A stretch of DNA of 64,000 nt, from NCBI GenBank assembly GCA_030148725.1, contig JASBSU010000009.1, positions 62,001-126,000 on the forward strand, written 5' to 3'. This DNA comes from Hyphomicrobium sp. (GTDB taxonomy: Bacteria; Pseudomonadota; Alphaproteobacteria; Rhizobiales; Hyphomicrobiaceae). The notes beneath the pieces were generated by a model. The model was not told where the DNA came from, ran no database searches, and was given only the letters and a program-made list of their open reading frames with translations. The position numbers and the translations under genes were made by a program. Below are positions 11,569 through 20,127 of the stretch, piece after piece; position 1 is the stretch's first letter; each line of letters starts with the position of its first letter.

Positions 11569-12732
11569 TCAGTGTCTCAGTTTGCCGCTCGCGGGAACGC
11601 CCGCAACCCACGTCTCGAGCACGTCTATGGAAACCGGCTCGAAGGCCACCATGTCGGCACGAAAAGCCGGCGCGAGGCGACCGAGCAATGTGCCGAGGCC
11701 CAGGAACTCTGCCGGCTCGGTCGAGGCGAATTGGAGCGCCGTCGGCAGGGGCACGTGAAGGTCGCGCACGGCATTGCGCACAGACGTCGCCATATCGATC
11801 GCAGCACCTGCCAGCGTGCCATCACGCCGCGAGCAGCGCCCGTCATGCACGGTAATTTCCTCGCCGTAGAGCGAGAAACCGCCCTTGCTGCCGCCAACTG
11901 TTGGCATGGCATCGGTAACGAGCATCGGCCGCGCGCGCCCTCTCAGCGCCAGCCGAAGCATCACCGGGTCGACGTGAAAGCCATCTGCGATCATCCCGAA
12001 CCACGCCCGGTCGCTTTCGAGCGCCGCTGCAATCGGCCCCGGCGCGCGGCTCGAGAGCTGCGGCATTGCGTTGAACAGGTGCGTGAAGCCGGTGAGCCCC
12101 GCGGCCAGCGCTGCCTGCGTCTGTTCATAGTTCGCCATCGAATGCCCCAGCGACACCCGCACGCCAGCTTGCGCCAGCGCCGTTATGAACGCCGAGGGTA
12201 CACGTTCCGGTGCCAGCGTCACCAGCACCGCGCCTTCGTGCCACGACGTCAACAACTCGAGGTCGTTCGCATCAGGCTCACGAAACATCGCTTTGTCGTG
12301 GACACCCGGCTTCTCCGGCGACAGGAACGGGCCCTCGAAATGCACGCCGAGAACGCTCGGATTGCGCGCCGCCGCAGCACGCACGGCACCGAGCGCCGCA
12401 ACCATCTTCTCTCGCGTGTCGCTGATCAGCGTCGGCAGAAGCCCGGTCGTCCCATAGCGACGGTGCGCCTTCGCGATCGCATCGACCCCCTCTTCGGTCG
12501 TCGTATCGTTGAACAGCACATCGCCGCCGCCATTCACTTGCACGTCGATGAAGCCCGGCGCCAACCAGGCGTCGCCCGGCAGATGCACGACCGGTATCGA
12601 CGCCGGTAGCGCGCCGCGCGAAACCACGTCGACGATATGCGCGCCCTCGATGATCACGGCACAATCCTCGAGGACTGCGACGCCATCGAAAACATGGCCA
12701 GCGGCGATGGCATAAGTTTGGGCAGCGCTCAT
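11569..12732 (-). CDS. nagA: N-acetylglucosamine-6-phosphate deacetylase
   Basis: A 387-residue amidohydrolase-fold enzyme converting GlcNAc-6-P to GlcN-6-P and acetate. Family motifs are LAPGFIDVQVNGGG, the metal-site Glu in GVHFEGPFLSPEKPG, the metal-binding His in VSLGHSMANYEQ and in GFTHLFNAMP, the substrate His in IADGFHVDP and the catalytic Asp in LVTDAM. The ATG overlaps the preceding SIS gene's stop by 4 nt (ATGA), so the BadF-kinase, SIS and nagA genes form one coupled operon for amino-sugar breakdown or recycling. Confidence 0.95.
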   Translation of the reverse strand: MSAAQTYAIAAGHVFDGVAVLEDCAVIIEGAHIVDVVSRGALPASIPVVHLPGDAWLAPGFIDVQVNGGGDVLFNDTTTEEGVDAIAKAHRRYGTTGLLPTLISDTREKMVAALGAVRAAAARNPSVLGVHFEGPFLSPEKPGVHDKAMFREPDANDLELLTSWHEGAVLVTLAPERVPSAFITALAQAGVRVSLGHSMANYEQTQAALAAGLTGFTHLFNAMPQLSSRAPGPIAAALESDRAWFGMIADGFHVDPVMLRLALRGRARPMLVTDAMPTVGGSKGGFSLYGEEITVHDGRCSRRDGTLAGAAIDMATSVRNAVRDLHVPLPTALQFASTEPAEFLGLGTLLGRLAPAFRADMVAFEPVSIDVLETWVAGVPASGKLRH

Positions 12733-13781
12733 AGCGTGTTGGTGACTTTCCTCAGGTTGCGCGGACGGTCGACGTCGACGTTCAATCGCTGTGCGAGTTG
12801 AACGGCCATCGCATAGAAGCTCTGAATGAGGCAGATCGCATCTGCCTCCGGCTGATCGGCTGTCAGGGTCGGCAGTCGGCCAACGACATCGCTGCTCCCA
12901 TCGGCGACGAATAGATCGGAGCCGAGCCGCCGCAACTCCACCGCAAGCTCGCGCATTCCAGCCGCCGCCTCGTCGGTCGGTGTCAGCATCAGGATCGGAT
13001 AGCTGCTGGAAACGAGCGAGACCGGCCCGTGCATGAACTCCGCGCCACTGAAGGCCTCGGCGTGCCTGTGGCAGGTCTCCTTGAGCTTCAGCGCCGCCTC
13101 ACGAGCGATTGCGAGCGTCGGTCCACGGCCGATGATGACGAGGCTTGGCGCTTTGGCGAGCGACGGCAGAACCGCACTCCAATCCAGGGCCGCCGCCGAG
13201 GCGAGCCGCTCCGGCAGGCGTTCGACGGCGCGCGCCATGTAGTCGTTGTCCGACCATTGCGCCACGAGACGCGCCAGCACCGTCGCCGTTCCAATGAACG
13301 TCTTCGTTGCAGCGACGCTCAGCTCGGGTCCTGCACAGATCGGCAGAACGACATCGCAAGTGTCTGCCAGTGGCGAGTTCTCTGAATTCGTCACCGCGAC
13401 TGTCAGAGCGCCGGATCGCTTTGCACTTCGGGTCAGCGCAAGCAGATCTTCACTGCGGCCCGACTGCGAGATCGCAAGCACCAACTCGCCCTCCAGCCGC
13501 AGCCCTCCGCCGTAGATGCTGGCGACGCTCGGAGCAGCCGGCGCAACCGGAATGCCGAGGCAGCGCTCGATGAGGTGCTTTCCGAACGCGGCTGCATGAG
13601 CGGAGCTGCCGCGGGCGCACGTGACCACCACGCGCGGCGGCCGCTTCTTCAGGCGATCGACGAGTTCGGCGAGCGGCCGCACGAGCGCCTCGTCCTGGCG
13701 CAGGACAACCATCGGAGCTTCCGCGAGCTCCTCGGCCATCTTCGCTTTCGCGCTGCTCATTACCGAACCGTTCGCCGTCAC
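12729..13781 (-). CDS. SIS-domain amino-sugar isomerase/deaminase (NagB-II/GlmS-C-like)
   Basis: About 350 residues with two SIS domains like the isomerase half of GlmS but no glutaminase domain. The first has TCARGSSAHAAAFGKHLIE and the ISQSGRSEDLL sugar-phosphate loop; the second has IIGRGPTLAIAREAALKLKETCHRHAEAF and EFMHGPVSL. Together with NagA it probably acts as a glucosamine-6-phosphate deaminase of the isomerase type, giving fructose-6-P, since no classical NagB is nearby. The GTG at 13781 overlaps the kinase stop (GTGA) like the other junctions here; the ATG at 13760 is the alternative start. Confidence 0.88.
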   Translation of the reverse strand: MTANGSVMSSAKAKMAEELAEAPMVVLRQDEALVRPLAELVDRLKKRPPRVVVTCARGSSAHAAAFGKHLIERCLGIPVAPAAPSVASIYGGGLRLEGELVLAISQSGRSEDLLALTRSAKRSGALTVAVTNSENSPLADTCDVVLPICAGPELSVAATKTFIGTATVLARLVAQWSDNDYMARAVERLPERLASAAALDWSAVLPSLAKAPSLVIIGRGPTLAIAREAALKLKETCHRHAEAFSGAEFMHGPVSLVSSSYPILMLTPTDEAAAGMRELAVELRRLGSDLFVADGSSDVVGRLPTLTADQPEADAICLIQSFYAMAVQLAQRLNVDVDRPRNLRKVTNTL

Positions 13782-14683
13782 CTGCGCCTCGCTAACGGTT
13801 CGCAGCGCGCCAATCTCTGAGCCTCGACACGCGCCAGCCATAGCGCACCCGTGAGGGCATCGCCCTCCGGCGCCACGAGAAGCGATCGCGTGCGTGGCGC
13901 AAGCCACGGCTCGATGCTACCGGCAAGACCGCCCGACAATGCCAACTGCGGAACGCCCAGCGCCGCAAGCCGTTCAGCCATTTCACCGACGTGCGCTGCG
14001 GCCTCGGTCATGAGTTCGCGCGCCGTGCTGTCGCCGCGCGCCGAATATTCGATGACCAGCGGCGCAAGCGTCGCGAAATCGCGCGGATGCGCCTGGCCCA
14101 TCCAGCGCACGATGGCGTGCGGATCTCCGTCGAACCGCTCCAGAATTTTCTTGGTCAGCCCCGTCCACGCGCTGCGGCCGTCGCAGCAGCGCAGCGTTCG
14201 CCGCGCGATCTCACAACCGATCCACGCTCCGCTTCCCTCATCTGAAACCGGAAAGCCCCAGCCGCCGACCCGGTACTCCTCGCTGCCGACGATGCCCCAG
14301 CCGACGCTGCCGGTGCCGACAACGATGATGCCGCCGTTCTTGCCGCCATGCGCTCCGACGCACGCCGCGTGAGCGTCAGTCGTCAGCAAGGTATGAGCGA
14401 AAGGCAGGTTGTATGTGCGCGCAGCGGCAAGATGAGTGGGCTCACTGGCACCCGCGAGTGCCAGGCACGCGACGATGTTGGCATCCTGGAGAGCGACGCC
14501 CGCTTGTTCCAGGCATTGCTCCGTCGCGTGGAGAACGGCTGCGAAACTCTCTTTGATGCCAAAACGAATGTTTGCCGGCCCAGCGGAACCTTCGCCAAGC
14601 AGATGGCCTTCCACGTCGGTCAGCCGGGCGCGGCAGCCGGTTCCGCCGCCATCGACACCAAGCAGTAACGCCGTTGCCGCCAT
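13778..14683 (-). CDS. BadF/BadG/BcrA/BcrD-type N-acetylhexosamine kinase
   Basis: About 301 residues of the ASKHA kinase fold. The phosphate-1 loop is LLGVDGGGTGCRARL; the phosphate-2 and adenosine segments are GGIIVVGTGSVGWGI and LALSGGLAGSIEPWL. The family includes mammalian NAGK and bacterial GlcNAc/MurNAc kinases. Because it lies upstream of a SIS enzyme and nagA and divergent from murQ, the likely substrate is GlcNAc and/or MurNAc (inference). The ATG at 14683 is used (GGGAA upstream); an ATG at 14704 is possible. Confidence 0.85.
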   Translation of the reverse strand: MAATALLLGVDGGGTGCRARLTDVEGHLLGEGSAGPANIRFGIKESFAAVLHATEQCLEQAGVALQDANIVACLALAGASEPTHLAAARTYNLPFAHTLLTTDAHAACVGAHGGKNGGIIVVGTGSVGWGIVGSEEYRVGGWGFPVSDEGSGAWIGCEIARRTLRCCDGRSAWTGLTKKILERFDGDPHAIVRWMGQAHPRDFATLAPLVIEYSARGDSTARELMTEAAAHVGEMAERLAALGVPQLALSGGLAGSIEPWLAPRTRSLLVAPEGDALTGALWLARVEAQRLARCEPLARRR

Positions 14684-14772
14684 TGGATGCACGTTTCCCA
14701 GCATCTACGCTATTGAAGAGAGACGCCACCTATATAACGTGGTGAACGCCTTCGAGGGATCACGCTTTCCGC
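14684..14772. promoter_or_regulatory. Divergent promoter region between the kinase operon and murQ
   Basis: About 90 nt separate the oppositely oriented kinase and murQ genes. The AT-rich stretch CTATATAACG (around 14729-14738) could hold a -10 element. Shared control of both arms of the amino-sugar pathway is inferred from the layout. No regulator gene is adjacent. Confidence 0.35.
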
Positions 14773-15696
14773 ATGAATACGGAAGAGTTAAGTCCGCGCT
14801 ACGCCGATATCGACCTCTGGCAACCTTCTGACATCCTCGATGCGATGGTCGAAGGTCAGCTTGCCTCTGTTGCCGCCGTCAGGGCTGCGCGCCCCGCAAT
14901 CGAGGAAGCTGCGCTCGCTATCGAGGCGAGAATGCGCAAGTGCGGACGCCTCATCTACGTAGGAGCAGGTACGTCCGGTCGCCTCGCCGTTCAAGATGGC
15001 GCGGAGCTGATGCCGACATTCAGTTGGCCTCAGGAGCGGCTATTGCTGCTTCTGGCTGGCGGCGATGCCGCCATGACGCAAGCCATCGAAGGCGCCGAGG
15101 ACGACGTCGACCGTGCCGGCGAGCTTATCCGCGAACATGACATCGGCCCCGATGATGCGCTCATCGCAGTAGCGGCGAGCGGCAGCACCCCCTTCACGCT
15201 GGCTTGCCTGCGCGAAGCCGGACGCCGCGGTGCGCTGACGATCGGCATTGCCAACAACCCCGGTGCCCCTCTCCTCACCGACGCCGCTTGCCCAATCTTC
15301 CTGGCCACCGGTCCAGAGCCCATTGCGGGCTCGACACGCATGAATGCGGGCACCGCTCAGCGCATCACGCTTAATCTTCTCTCTACGCTCGTCATGATCC
15401 GGCTCGGCCGCATCTACCGCGGCATGATGGTCGAGGTTCAGGCTTGCAATGCCAAGCTCGCCAAGCGGCGTGAACGCATTGTTGCACATCTGACCGGCCA
15501 GAGCGGCGCGCCCGTGCGGGAAGCGCTGGAGGAGGCGGAAGGCAACGTGAAGCTCGCCGTATTGCTGCTGCAGGGATACGCGCTGCACGAAGCCCAGTCC
15601 GTTCTCGATGAAGTCGGTGGGCGTCTTCGCGCGGCACTCGATCATTTGGCGAAGTCGCGCGCGCCTTCTCTCGAAGGCACGAAAAATCACTCGTGA
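14773..15696 (+). CDS. murQ: N-acetylmuramic acid 6-phosphate etherase
   Basis: A 307-residue SIS-fold lyase that removes the D-lactyl ether of MurNAc-6-P to give GlcNAc-6-P. It opens with LSPRYADIDLWQPSDILDAM. The sugar-phosphate loop is VGAGTSGRLAVQDGAELMPT, followed by AVAASGSTPFTLACLR. The family signature is in GPEPIAGSTRMNAGTAQR, and the C-terminal three-helix bundle is present. Its product feeds the divergently encoded NagA. No anhydro-MurNAc kinase (AnmK) is in the window; the BadF-type kinase might supply MurNAc-6-P. Confidence 0.96.
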   Translation: MNTEELSPRYADIDLWQPSDILDAMVEGQLASVAAVRAARPAIEEAALAIEARMRKCGRLIYVGAGTSGRLAVQDGAELMPTFSWPQERLLLLLAGGDAAMTQAIEGAEDDVDRAGELIREHDIGPDDALIAVAASGSTPFTLACLREAGRRGALTIGIANNPGAPLLTDAACPIFLATGPEPIAGSTRMNAGTAQRITLNLLSTLVMIRLGRIYRGMMVEVQACNAKLAKRRERIVAHLTGQSGAPVREALEEAEGNVKLAVLLLQGYALHEAQSVLDEVGGRLRAALDHLAKSRAPSLEGTKNHS

Positions 15697-15953: not shown

Positions 15954-18689
15954 ATGGCGAGTTTTGTTGGCGGTATGCGCATGCGCGCAACCTCCATACC
16001 GACCGGGGGCTCAGGCGAAAACGGCGCCAGCACTCTGCGTGGAGAAGCGGCCTCGCATCCCGTTGATCGCGTCAAGCGTTATGCCGCGACGACGACCGTC
16101 GCCGTCGCAGCTCTCGCGGCATCCGGGTACGTAACCCTGCATCTCGCAATGCATCGCATGGGCCCGCCACCCATTGAGCTCACTGCGTCCGTGCAGCCAA
16201 CGGCGTCCGCACCGACGCCTCCGAACCCGATGGTCCCGACGCTCGATCCCGACGCCGTCGATCAGCGCTATCTCGCCATGCTCTTCGCGTTCGAGGACAG
16301 ACGCTTTTATTCGCACTACGGCGTCGACCCCTTCGGGATCGCACGCGCGGCGCGTGATCTTTTCGTCAACGGTCGCATCGTCACCGGCGGCTCGACCATC
16401 ACGATGCAGGTGGCGCGCCTCATCGACAACAACTACCAGCGCCGCCCGTCCGTGAAGGTACGGCAGATTCTGCGCGCCATGCAGCTCGAGCGCGATCTCA
16501 CGAAAAAGCAGATCCTCGGTCTTTATCTCGCGCTGGCGCCGTTCGGTGGCCGGACCAAGGGCGTGCGCGCAGCGGCGATGAAGTTCTTCGGCAAGGATCC
16601 GCGCAACCTCACGATCGCCGAGGCCGCGCTGCTCGTCGCGCTCCCTCAGGCACCCGAGGCCCGACGCCTCGACCGCGATGCGGCTGCCGCGCTCCGCGCC
16701 AGGAACTTCGTTCTCGACCGGGTCGCCAGTGTTGGCGTCCTCACCGCCGCCGAGGCCGAGTTGGCCAAACGTGAACCCCTGACACCAGAGAGTTCCATCA
16801 TGCCCCCAATCCCAGAGCACAAGCCCTCCTCGTTCCAGGTTGCCGGTCTCTTTGCGGGCCTGACGCTCGGCATGAACGTCGTAGCCGGGTCTGCGGCGGC
16901 AACGACCATCGAGCCGCAGCGAGCGCACTTCGTCGGTTCCGGCGAGCAGGTCGTGCTCGACGTGCGTCGCAAGCTTCTCGGCGCGCAGCCCGCAGGAACG
17001 CATCAAGATGATCGCGATGCGCTTTGGATGTTCTATGCCTCGCGCAATGAGCCGGTATGGACGTCGAAACGCGGCTGGACACCGAAGGCCGCCGCCCTGA
17101 TCGAGGAAATCCGCAAAGCGGATGACTGGGGCCTCGACGCCGCAGACTTCACCATCCCGGATATGCAGACAGCCTCGACCGCCGGCACCCCAGTTCCCGA
17201 GCGCCAGCTCGTCGATGCCGAAACCGCCCTTTCGCTTGCCGCTTTGAAGTATGCCCGCTACGCGCGTGGAGGACGTATCGCCGATCCCGCGACGCAGCTC
17301 AGCTCTTACCTCGATCGCAAACCGCAGGTTAAACCGCCGTTCCTCGTCATTTCCGACCTCGCGACGTCACACGCGCCCGACGCGCTGCTGCGCCGGATGC
17401 ATCCGCAGAACGAGCAGTTCGCCAAGCTGCGCGAGCAGTATCTGACGCTTCGTCAATCGGGGGGCGATGCCCCAGTCAACATCCCACCCGGCAACAAGCT
17501 GCGTCCGGGAACCACCGATCCGACCATCGCGCTGATACGCGAACGGCTTCGCGTACCTGCATCTGCCGGCGAGGACGCGAATCTCTATGACGACCAACTT
17601 GTCGATGCCGTGAAGCGCTTCCAGACCAAGCGCGGTATCGAGCCGGCCAACGGAACCATCACAGCCAAGACGCGCCGCGCGCTTAGTGAAGGACAGAAGG
17701 TCAGCCCCGAGACATTGCTCGCCAACATGGAGCAGTGGCGCTGGATGCCGGACGATCTCGGCCACGCATATGTTTGGGTCAGCATTCCCGAGTTCACCGT
17801 CAGCGTCGTGAAGGATGGACAAACCGTCCACACCGAGCGCGTGATCACGGGTGAGACAAAGATGCAAACGCCGGTCTTCTCGGAAGACTTGAAGACGATC
17901 TACTTTCACCCGCGCTGGATCGTCCCCAACAGCATCAAGGTGAAGGAGATCGGCCCCGCGATTGCGCGCGGCAAGCGCCGCGACATGGTCGTGATGCGCA
18001 ACGGCAAGGTCATCAAGCCGAGCACCGTCAACTGGTACAAGGCCGACATCCGAAACTACGATGTCTTTCAGCCGTCGGGTCCCGGCAACGCCCTCGGCGA
18101 GATGAAGTTCACCTTCCCCAATAAGCACATGGTCTATCTGCACGACACGCAGAGCAAGGGCCTGTTCAGCTCCGAGCAGCGCACGTTCAGCCACGGATGC
18201 GTGCGCGTGCGCAATCCCCAGCGTCTGGCTGAGGTCCTGCTCGACATCGACAAAGGCTGGACGCCCGAGGAGGTAACCCGCCTCGTGAAGGTGAAAGGCA
18301 ATCCGGAGGAGAACGCCGTCGATCTCAACGATCACATCCCGGTTCACCTCACCTACTTCACCGCCCGCGTCGACGAGGATGGAGACGTCATCACTTCCAA
18401 AGACGTCTACGGCCACGAAAAGCGGATTACCCAGGCCCTGCAAGGCAAGTGGGACAGCATCGACAAAGGGCCAGACCACCTCGCACAGGTGGAACTGGCG
18501 CGGCGGCTCGATGATGCAGACAACGCCAAGCCGAGGAACAGGAGCGCCCGTCGCAGCACGAGCTCCGGCAAGCGCTACGCGACCCGCAGCAACGGCTACG
18601 GTGGAGGTGGTGGCAGCGGATACACGGCGCGCGTGAGCAGCAACGGTTCCTCCGCCAACGATGTCTTCCGCCGCAGCTTCGGCTACTAG
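15954..18689 (+). CDS. GT51 glycosyltransferase / YcbB-type L,D-transpeptidase fusion
   Basis: A 911-residue cell-wall enzyme with two catalytic halves. A membrane anchor lies at about 46-66. Residues about 100-275 are a GT51 transglycosylase of PBP1C type: catalytic E114 in FAFEDRRFYSHYGVD, GGSTITMQ at 145-152, LERDLTKKQILGLYL, APFGGRTKG and LPQAPE. Where a class A PBP would continue with its penicillin-binding domain, residues about 328-500 instead match the YcbB scaffold, about 515-580 a peptidoglycan-binding domain, and about 600-765 a YkuD catalytic domain with SHGCVRV (H747, C749). The tail is Ser/Arg/Gly-rich. Residues 283-316 look like a signal peptide left at the junction. GAGG precedes the ATG. 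It probably polymerises glycan and makes 3-3 cross-links in the periplasm. Confidence 0.9.
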   Translation: MASFVGGMRMRATSIPTGGSGENGASTLRGEAASHPVDRVKRYAATTTVAVAALAASGYVTLHLAMHRMGPPPIELTASVQPTASAPTPPNPMVPTLDPDAVDQRYLAMLFAFEDRRFYSHYGVDPFGIARAARDLFVNGRIVTGGSTITMQVARLIDNNYQRRPSVKVRQILRAMQLERDLTKKQILGLYLALAPFGGRTKGVRAAAMKFFGKDPRNLTIAEAALLVALPQAPEARRLDRDAAAALRARNFVLDRVASVGVLTAAEAELAKREPLTPESSIMPPIPEHKPSSFQVAGLFAGLTLGMNVVAGSAAATTIEPQRAHFVGSGEQVVLDVRRKLLGAQPAGTHQDDRDALWMFYASRNEPVWTSKRGWTPKAAALIEEIRKADDWGLDAADFTIPDMQTASTAGTPVPERQLVDAETALSLAALKYARYARGGRIADPATQLSSYLDRKPQVKPPFLVISDLATSHAPDALLRRMHPQNEQFAKLREQYLTLRQSGGDAPVNIPPGNKLRPGTTDPTIALIRERLRVPASAGEDANLYDDQLVDAVKRFQTKRGIEPANGTITAKTRRALSEGQKVSPETLLANMEQWRWMPDDLGHAYVWVSIPEFTVSVVKDGQTVHTERVITGETKMQTPVFSEDLKTIYFHPRWIVPNSIKVKEIGPAIARGKRRDMVVMRNGKVIKPSTVNWYKADIRNYDVFQPSGPGNALGEMKFTFPNKHMVYLHDTQSKGLFSSEQRTFSHGCVRVRNPQRLAEVLLDIDKGWTPEEVTRLVKVKGNPEENAVDLNDHIPVHLTYFTARVDEDGDVITSKDVYGHEKRITQALQGKWDSIDKGPDHLAQVELARRLDDADNAKPRNRSARRSTSSGKRYATRSNGYGGGGGSGYTARVSSNGSSANDVFRRSFGY

Positions 18690-18770: not shown

Positions 18771-18906
18771 ACAAGCGATAAAAAGGTCAGCGTTTCATTC
18801 GCCAAAGATAAAGTCTGTCCACGGCCTTTCGTTGATTGTATCGCTTGCCCCGTCATCACTGGAGCGCCTGCGCAGTGCAGCCGTTTTTCTGTCGAGTGAG
18901 GACGCA

Positions 18907-19548
18907 ATGTCGAAGAGTGCGTACGGAATGGTGATGGGCGCCGCGGCCCTGTCGGCGTTCTGCTTGGTTCAGCCCGCCAGCGCGCTGACCATGAAGCAAT
19001 GTAGCGAGAAGTATAAAGCCGCTGCCGGCACACCCGCCGCAGCCATGAGCTGGAACGATTTCCGCAAGGCGGAATGCGGCACGGACGCGACGATGGCGGT
19101 GAAGAAGACGAAGGCGCCCGCCGCCAAGGAAGCCAAGACGGCGACCGACCCTGCAACACCGCCTCCGGCCCGGCAGAAGAAGCAGGCCGCGACCGAGCCC
19201 TCCAAGCAGAGCAATGAGGTCAAGGTCAGCGAGAAGGAATGCAGCGTGCGCTATCAGGCCGCGAAGTCCGCCGGCACACTTGGATCGATGACCTGGAACC
19301 AGTTCCGATCCGCCGGATGCCCGCAGACGATCGCCAAGCGCACCGGCGCCATGGCGCCGACCGCCGGCTCCATGTTCCCCACCACCGTCTCCAGAAAGTA
19401 CTCCGGCGAGAGCCCCGGCCGCGCACGCCTTCTCACCTGCCGCGACCAGTACGAGGCCAACAAGGCTGCCGGTATCAGCGAGCCGAAGTGGACCGAGCAG
19501 GGTGGCGGCTACTACAGCGAATGCAACAAGCGCCTGAGCCAGCAGTAA
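18907..19548 (+). CDS. Secreted protein with cysteine-flanked repeats
   Basis: A 213-residue exported protein of unknown function. A signal peptide (MGAAALSAFCLVQPASA) is followed by two clear copies of a module of about 30 residues. The pattern is C-S-x-x-Y-x-A-A ... M-x-W-N-x-F-R-x-A-x-C (KQCSEKYKAAAG... and KECSVRYQAAKSAG...), each bounded by Cys. A divergent third copy sits near the C terminus (LTCRDQYEANKAAG ... YYSECNKRL). A Lys/Ala/Pro-rich linker joins modules one and two. The paired cysteines suggest one disulfide per module in the periplasm. The ATG at 18907 follows GAGGAC; a longer frame is unlikely. Confidence 0.75.
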   Translation: MSKSAYGMVMGAAALSAFCLVQPASALTMKQCSEKYKAAAGTPAAAMSWNDFRKAECGTDATMAVKKTKAPAAKEAKTATDPATPPPARQKKQAATEPSKQSNEVKVSEKECSVRYQAAKSAGTLGSMTWNQFRSAGCPQTIAKRTGAMAPTAGSMFPTTVSRKYSGESPGRARLLTCRDQYEANKAAGISEPKWTEQGGGYYSECNKRLSQQ

Positions 19549-19602: not shown

Positions 19603-20127
19603 ATGGGCATTCTCGATGAAGTGCTTCAGCAGCTCCAGCAACAACAGGGCAAAGGGCAACCGCAGAACGCGGCCACCGGCGCCGACGGCCAGTCGCCGCT
19701 TCTGGTGATCTTCCAGGAGCTGCTGCTCGGCAAGCCGCAAGGCGCAGACCAACCGGCACCACGTCAGCAGCAGGCCGAGGCGCCGAGAGGCAACGTCTCC
19801 GCCCAGCAGGGCGGCGATCAGGACGCAAGCGGTCTTGGTGGATTGGGCGGCCTCGGCGGACTGCTCGCGCAGCTGCAGCAGTCAGGCCTCGACGACGTCG
19901 TCCGCTCGTGGGTCGGCCCCGGCGAGAACAAGCCGGTCGAGCCAGATGCCCTCGGTGACGCGCTCGGCAAAAAGGCCGTCACCCAGATGGCCGACAAGAC
20001 CGGTTGCAACCCCAACGACCTGCTGGCGCAGCTTTCGAAGGCACTGCCTGGCCTCATCGACAAGCTCACGCACGATGGGCGCATCCCGACGCAGCAAGAG
20101 GTCAGCCAGCGCCTGCGCGGTCAGTGA
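19603..20127 (+). CDS. YidB-family (DUF937) protein
   Basis: A 174-residue protein with a Gln-rich N-terminal half and the YidB/DUF937 C-terminal region. The latter has a GGLGGLGGLLAQLQQSGLDDVVRSWVGPGENKPV block, then LGKKAVTQMADKTG and LLAQLSKALPGLIDKLTHDGR. No biochemical function is established for the family. The ATG follows AGAGGACAAACGACC. It lies 54 nt after the secreted Cys-repeat gene and may be co-transcribed with it; a hairpin terminator follows at 20146-20176. Confidence 0.88.
   Translation: MGILDEVLQQLQQQQGKGQPQNAATGADGQSPLLVIFQELLLGKPQGADQPAPRQQQAEAPRGNVSAQQGGDQDASGLGGLGGLGGLLAQLQQSGLDDVVRSWVGPGENKPVEPDALGDALGKKAVTQMADKTGCNPNDLLAQLSKALPGLIDKLTHDGRIPTQQEVSQRLRGQ

Follow-up and report, generated by a model that had tools for sequence, protein, structure and literature searches.

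In a 64,000-nucleotide window of a Hyphomicrobium sp. draft genome (G000; 3.84 Mb in 61 contigs), a single open reading frame (ORF) running on the + strand from the ATG at 15954 to the TAG at 18689 encodes a protein of 911 amino acids, in which a GT51 glycosyltransferase domain of the PBP1C type is followed by a complete L,D-transpeptidase (Ldt) of the YcbB (LdtD) type. The described bifunctional peptidoglycan synthases combine GT51 with a penicillin-sensitive transpeptidase. We propose, with a probability of about 0.6, that the fused protein is a naturally occurring peptidoglycan synthase with two functions, a PBP1C-type enzyme whose D,D-transpeptidase has been swapped for an L,D-transpeptidase. 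Orthologous open frames are present in five further genomes, each half of the protein forms one clade, the predicted folds and catalytic residues of both halves are retained, and genes of cell wall recycling lie next to the fusion gene, which looks as if it were built for an unusual kind of cell wall.

A preliminary description of this DNA had claimed an unbroken 911-codon frame carrying the core GT51 motifs and, behind them, a YcbB-type scaffold and a YkuD domain. The frame was confirmed and the motifs were located as claimed (E114, GGSTITMQ from residue 145, Q171, LERDLTKKQIL from 178, LPQAPEA from 230 and SHGC from 746). The domain search that it had suggested found both PF00912 and PF03734: the matches to Transgly (residues 100–257, E 6.6e-45), to the YcbB Scaffold domain (PF20142; residues 358–495, 17025..17438, E 3.2e-23) and to YkuD (PF03734; residues 605–761, 17766..18236, E 4e-21) all exceed the curated cut-offs. 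The GT51 domain spans residues 98–278 (16245..16787) and is preceded by a helix of residues 36–69 (16059..16160), which is a putative membrane anchor according to the AlphaFold model and crude hydrophobicity. The YkuD domain contains His730 and, in its SHGC motif, Cys749, which in the alignment falls on the Cys of YcbB from E. coli (6ntw); the trees and the structure comparison agree with the profiles on the YcbB type. The best NCBIfam matches were PBP_1c for residues 100–286 and the L,D-transpeptidase PRK10594 for residues 537–827, both scoring far under the whole-protein cut-offs, as expected because the protein is a fusion. Similarly, the score for the PBP1C equivalog TIGR02073 was 216.2 bits against a cut-off of 494.2 and was confined to residues 100–286, and that for the monofunctional GT51 MtgA (TIGR02070) was 77.2 bits against 182.65. 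The protein thus has the GT51 domain of class A penicillin-binding proteins, whereas their D,D-transpeptidase domain PF00905 was not found in a Pfam search down to E 0.1. Among the 8 GT51 and 18 YkuD places of the source genome, only this ORF combines both; PF00905 is present in four of the six other GT51 proteins (scan without L008).

The fusion was found in six of the eight Hyphomicrobium genomes examined (G000, G007, G031, G057, G068 and G080; the loci include those of Hyphomicrobium sp. NDB2Meth4, L047, and Hyphomicrobium sp. SB8, L048). All six fused proteins match Transgly, Scaffold and YkuD, the other five being 58–67% identical to the window protein, and gaps among the orthologues at the junction comprise whole codons only. 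Chance domain matches were ruled out by the Pfam scores and their recurrence in all six proteins. A frameshift, which the preliminary description had named as a way in which it might fail, and likewise an assembly artefact were ruled out by the in-frame junctions in six genomes; since the same frame with whole-codon gaps occurs in five further genomes, neither chance nor a sequencing frameshift is a practical possibility. Searches by similarity to the window protein covered overlapping sets of genomes from the family, order, class and phylum (best 9, 4, 6 and 18 candidates per genome), and an unrelated GT51-YkuD fusion could escape them. Among the matches listed, the fusion occurred in 6/99 genomes of the family and, with a 400-residue GT51-junction query, in 3/397 of the order, all Hyphomicrobium, and in 1/142 genomes of the class and 1/100 of the phylum, both being the window's own genome; none was seen outside the genus. 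Where present, it ranked at the top of the matches. A pattern scan of genome contigs gave 49 loci, two of them fused and both within the same six genomes. Of 72,556 plasmid records, 574 matched and none reached 80% coverage in one place. All 22 rows of a PDB sequence search fell on one stretch in one half of the fusion, and none of the rows shown in the structure comparison (50 per list) covered the full length of both domains; in one of the lists, the longest of the alignments shown has 528 columns. A widespread architecture was therefore rejected, as no instance was seen beyond the genus in the similarity searches. Among the papers listed in the literature searches, which omit most subscription papers, none was found to describe a fusion of GT51 with YkuD; in the text of a 2025 review of LD-transpeptidases, the words fused and fusion do not occur and the two glycosyltransferase passages concern separate enzymes (PMC12729407). 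As far as tested, the architecture is thus not common and already described, although automatic annotations of such a fusion may exist in sequence databases.

The relationships of the two halves point to a common origin of all six fusions. In the GT51 tree (45 of 46 rows kept after removal of one duplicate: 6 fused, 26 PBP1C-side and 13 PBP1A-like), the fused parts are united in a single clade (100/100) that falls on the PBP1C side; this side is split from the PBP1A-like rows at 100/100, and the fused parts stand apart from the genus's other PBP1C-side sequences. Profile, tree and structure agree in this respect with the PBP1C likeness proposed at the outset. In the Ldt tree (58 of 81 matches kept, alignment of at least 480), the six fused parts again cluster together (100/100) within the stand-alone YcbB-type Ldts, and support for the neighbours nearest to this clade is only 92/80. 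Alignments with PBP1C stop at about residues 275–290, near Met283. The simplest history suggested by these alignments and trees would be a single event in which a PBP1C-type gene was cut after GT51 and joined in frame to an Ldt gene, which probably brought its signal-peptide region along. The Ldt half could instead mainly tether outer-membrane proteins or exchange D-amino acids, with GT51 merely supplying nascent strands. Ldts of Agrobacterium tether beta-barrel proteins, as stated in the available sections of PMC11527210, but the fused Ldt belongs to the YcbB type with a Scaffold domain, and the E. coli YcbB makes 3-3 cross-links according to the portions at hand of PMC5089857; we consider this explanation very improbable.

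In the mechanism that we propose for the bifunctional synthase, the N-terminal helix would anchor the protein in the inner membrane and the periplasmic GT51 domain would polymerise lipid II. D,D-carboxypeptidases would cut the new stems down to tetrapeptides; the source genome has four Peptidase_S11 places, whose proteins could be the makers of these tetrapeptides, and one FtsW/RodA-family place. The YkuD domain, tethered through a flexible junction and attached to the sacculus via the putative peptidoglycan-binding part, would then link the new strand to the wall through 3-3 cross-links. We infer both activities and their coupling from the retained domains and residues. Excerpts of work on E. 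coli report that YcbB makes a 3-3 wall with only the glycosyltransferase of PBP1b and a D,D-carboxypeptidase (PMC5089857) and that YcbB binds PBP1b with a Kd of 250 nM and has no membrane tether (PMC6478713). The fusion would provide tether and glycosyltransferase in one chain. Agrobacterium, which belongs to the same order and grows at its poles, is described in the sections available as having neither RodA nor PBP2 (PMC11527210).

Several observations weigh against this proposal. The fusion is absent from two of the eight genus genomes (G045 and G075), both fragmented drafts of 530 and 360 contigs, in which the best match is an ORF of 736–737 residues aligned over the GT51 part only. The candidate for the peptidoglycan-binding domain of the preliminary description is located at residues 543–577 (17580..17684), but its PF01471 score of 20.6 bits (E 5e-4) lies beneath the cut-off of 23, and PG_binding_1 was matched at E 0.001 by three of the six fused proteins. 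Should the junction act as a stop-transfer segment behind GT51, the Ldt half would come to lie in the cytoplasm. When not overproduced, PBP1a and PBP1c of E. coli did not take the place of PBP1b in supporting LdtD, and labelling at mid-cell did not return, as far as the excerpted text of that study goes (PMC6131605).

The other adverse points concern the GT51 half. The stem of the fused clade is 0.85 changes per column long, compared with 0.25 for a clade formed by six other PBP1C-side rows from the genus, and may, judged from the tree, reflect an altered function. In the window protein, the match to the Transgly profile lacks positions 1–19, whereas the PBP1C of the same genome (L004) matches from position 9. 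Gln171 (16464..16466) occupies the place of the second Glu, a residue of weight in GT51 enzymes. Together with the PBP1C-type motif changes, the long stem, the lost N-terminal stretch and this Gln would fit a GT51 part that does not polymerise and serves as a membrane anchor and a platform binding lipid II or strands, keeping the Ldt at sites of synthesis. Gln171 was indeed found at the position indicated by the preliminary description but is not special to the window protein: Q occurs in all six fused rows and in 25 of the 26 other PBP1C-side rows, and E in all 13 PBP1A-like rows. Transglycosylase activity of PBP1C was reportedly described in 1999. Glu114 (16293..16295), the catalytic Glu, is retained in all fused, PBP1C-side and PBP1A-like rows, the ten listed motif residues are invariant in 45/45 rows, and of all parts of the fusion, GT51 shows the highest conservation (76% mean identity). 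Overproduced E. coli PBP1c supports LdtD-dependent labelling, according to the accessible part of PMC6131605. A non-polymerising GT51 part is, in our opinion, improbable.

The junction (residues 279–323, 16788..16922) has no helix and is disordered in the AlphaFold model, and we regard it with moderate confidence as a linker crossing into the periplasm; the membrane anchor and the periplasmic location of the C-terminal half are predictions from sequence. Hydrophobicity sums, which are crude, were +3.1 to +4.7 for the junction in the six proteins, i.e. disfavoured as a membrane span, and −5.0 to +3.1 for the first helix, likewise disfavoured (positive) in three of six; in the window protein the two values are close (3.8 and 3.1). 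Residues 283–320 resemble a signal peptide: the invariant Met283 is followed by a Pro-rich stretch, and the segment contains an invariant Lys290 and a hydrophobic stretch with an invariant AGLTLG and Asn308 (AGLTLGxN), after which A-x-A was found by eye in five of the six fused proteins. Met283 is one of six invariant Met among the 22 of the window protein. AGLTLG was seen elsewhere once among the loci compared, in an unrelated frame of L122. The AlphaFold alignment held the window protein and 59 of 66 listed relatives, and only six rows cover the junction.

Because the junction is signal-peptide-like, translation might also begin at the internal ATG at 16800..16802 (Met283) and give a free Ldt, so that one ORF would yield two products, the long fusion and a periplasmic Ldt with its own signal peptide; the ancestral Ldt start would then have survived the in-frame fusion. 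This short product would have the soluble periplasmic form of YcbB/LdtD, with an N-terminal signal peptide and no glycosyltransferase domain, which the long ORF does not have. The stand-alone Ldts of the family start with ordinary signal peptides (16 of 20 where the inspected stretch reached), and GAGAG or GAGGC precedes the internal ATG in all six genes; on the other hand, the inspected stand-alone signal peptides differ in sequence from the junction. Nor is the junction far more conserved than usual signal peptides; by identity it is only modestly so (0.64 vs 0.68 for the core in the fused proteins; 0.50–0.89 vs 0.68–0.95 in seven groups of stand-alone Ldts). At the junction, one close pair showed low synonymous divergence (0.00 and 0.09 vs 0.22–0.64 elsewhere), but no reduction was seen in the other two pairs. 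The computed Shine-Dalgarno pairing at the internal ATG was about −3 in four genes, a score as low being given by 37–45% of the codon positions of the frame, −5.8 in one and −9.3 in one, compared with −6.4 for the 5′ start of the window gene; an internal start is not supported by Shine-Dalgarno strength. Weak pairing is no bar to a start, however, and since the neighbouring genes at mechanically taken starts also pair weakly (murQ −3.6, nagK 0.0, nagA −0.3), the test decides little. We regard two products as possible but unlikely. Slightly more doubtful is the extension that such nested enzymes, an anchored GT51-Ldt building a 3-3 wall with no penicillin-binding domain and a free periplasmic Ldt, lying beside murQ and the nag genes, may couple recycled sugars to the synthesis of the 3-3 wall.

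Upstream of the fusion lie genes of amino sugar recycling: murQ (N-acetylmuramic acid 6-phosphate etherase, 14773..15696, +; NF003915 above cut-off, TIGR00274 below), which ends 257 bases upstream of the fusion, a divergent gene of a nagK-like N-acetylglucosamine kinase (13778..14704, −; best match NF046058, below cut-off), one of a nagB-II-like SIS protein (12729..13907, −; best match NF046059, below cut-off) and nagA (N-acetylglucosamine-6-phosphate deacetylase, 11569..12732, −; TIGR00221 above cut-off, NF008371 below). The preliminary description mentions neither these genes nor the signal-peptide-like junction with its invariant ATG. With 15 kb compared per locus, murQ and nagK adjoin the fusion in all six loci, and nagB-II and nagA in four. 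No murQ was seen in G045 and G075, the genus genomes without the fusion. The idea that murQ is always accompanied by the fusion was rejected, as 11 of the 17 murQ-bearing genomes among the 99 of the family lack it. In those 11, neither the GT51 nor the Ldt part of the fusion gave a match within about 1.5 kb (one stretch being shorter) on either side of murQ, and in three of them (L166–L168, from a set of eight murQ regions) the ORFs downstream of murQ appear by eye to be unrelated. The fusion gene was thus probably added to a recycling cluster that already existed. A link between recycling and the fused synthase would be plausible. Promoter-like sites numbered 0 against 0.6 expected and terminator-like sites 4 against 3.0. 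Downstream of the fusion, 18832–19548 encodes a 238-residue protein with repeated Cys-containing KAA...W units; this gene and a YidB-like gene (19603–20127) were found by tblastn near the fusion in five of six loci, L149 being the exception.

The fused protein ends in a Gly/Ser-rich tail of low model confidence (18504..18686), whose end, SSANDVFRRSFGY, resembles the ends of the stand-alone YcbB-type Ldts L035 and L056, hinting at a conserved C-terminal function. A family member (L031, G013:C96) has two YcbB-type Ldt matches in tandem. Among the other GT51 proteins of the source genome, an MtgA-like one (L005:1408-3387, G000:C40), above the TIGR02070 cut-off, has a Pro/Ala-rich extension of about 430 residues ahead of its hydrophobic stretch, and the eighth (L008, G000:C15:34422-37934), of at least 795 amino acids, has a weak Transgly match of 56 bits.

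A natural GT51-L,D-transpeptidase, in which evolution has joined the parts for polymerisation and 3-3 cross-linking in one chain, makes it possible to study within one protein how L,D-transpeptidases receive nascent strands. It opens the questions of whether coupling to a glycosyltransferase makes a 3-3 wall efficient and where the L,D-rich wall of polar-growing or budding Hyphomicrobiales comes from. It would also give the PBP1C-type glycosyltransferase a natural partner, in line with the result of PBP1c and LdtD overproduction in E. coli, as far as the excerpted report describes it (PMC6131605).

Compared with known systems, the fusion resembles PBP1C/PbpC (TIGR02073) in the tree position of its GT51 domain, the Gln at the second-Glu position and the N-terminal helix, but a YcbB-type Ldt stands where PF00905 and BiPBP_C, both present in the genome's own PBP1C, would be. 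With YcbB/LdtD (E. coli 6ntw, V. cholerae LdtA 7aj9) it shares Scaffold, YkuD, the catalytic Cys and the fold; the E. coli protein is soluble, periplasmic and without a glycosyltransferase domain in the parts available of the respective papers (PMC5089857; PMC6478713), whereas the fusion has GT51 and a helix ahead. The stand-alone YcbB-type Ldts of Hyphomicrobiaceae, up to about 50–55% identical to the fused Ldt part, have an ordinary signal peptide where seen and, unlike the fusion, no GT51. The mechanism proposed here would employ the same three activities as the E. coli beta-lactam bypass by YcbB, PBP1b and DacA. In that bypass, however, the glycosyltransferase is of the PBP1b type and the glycosyltransferase and the Ldt are separate, mutually binding proteins, whereas in Hyphomicrobium a glycosyltransferase of the PBP1C type and an Ldt form one chain.
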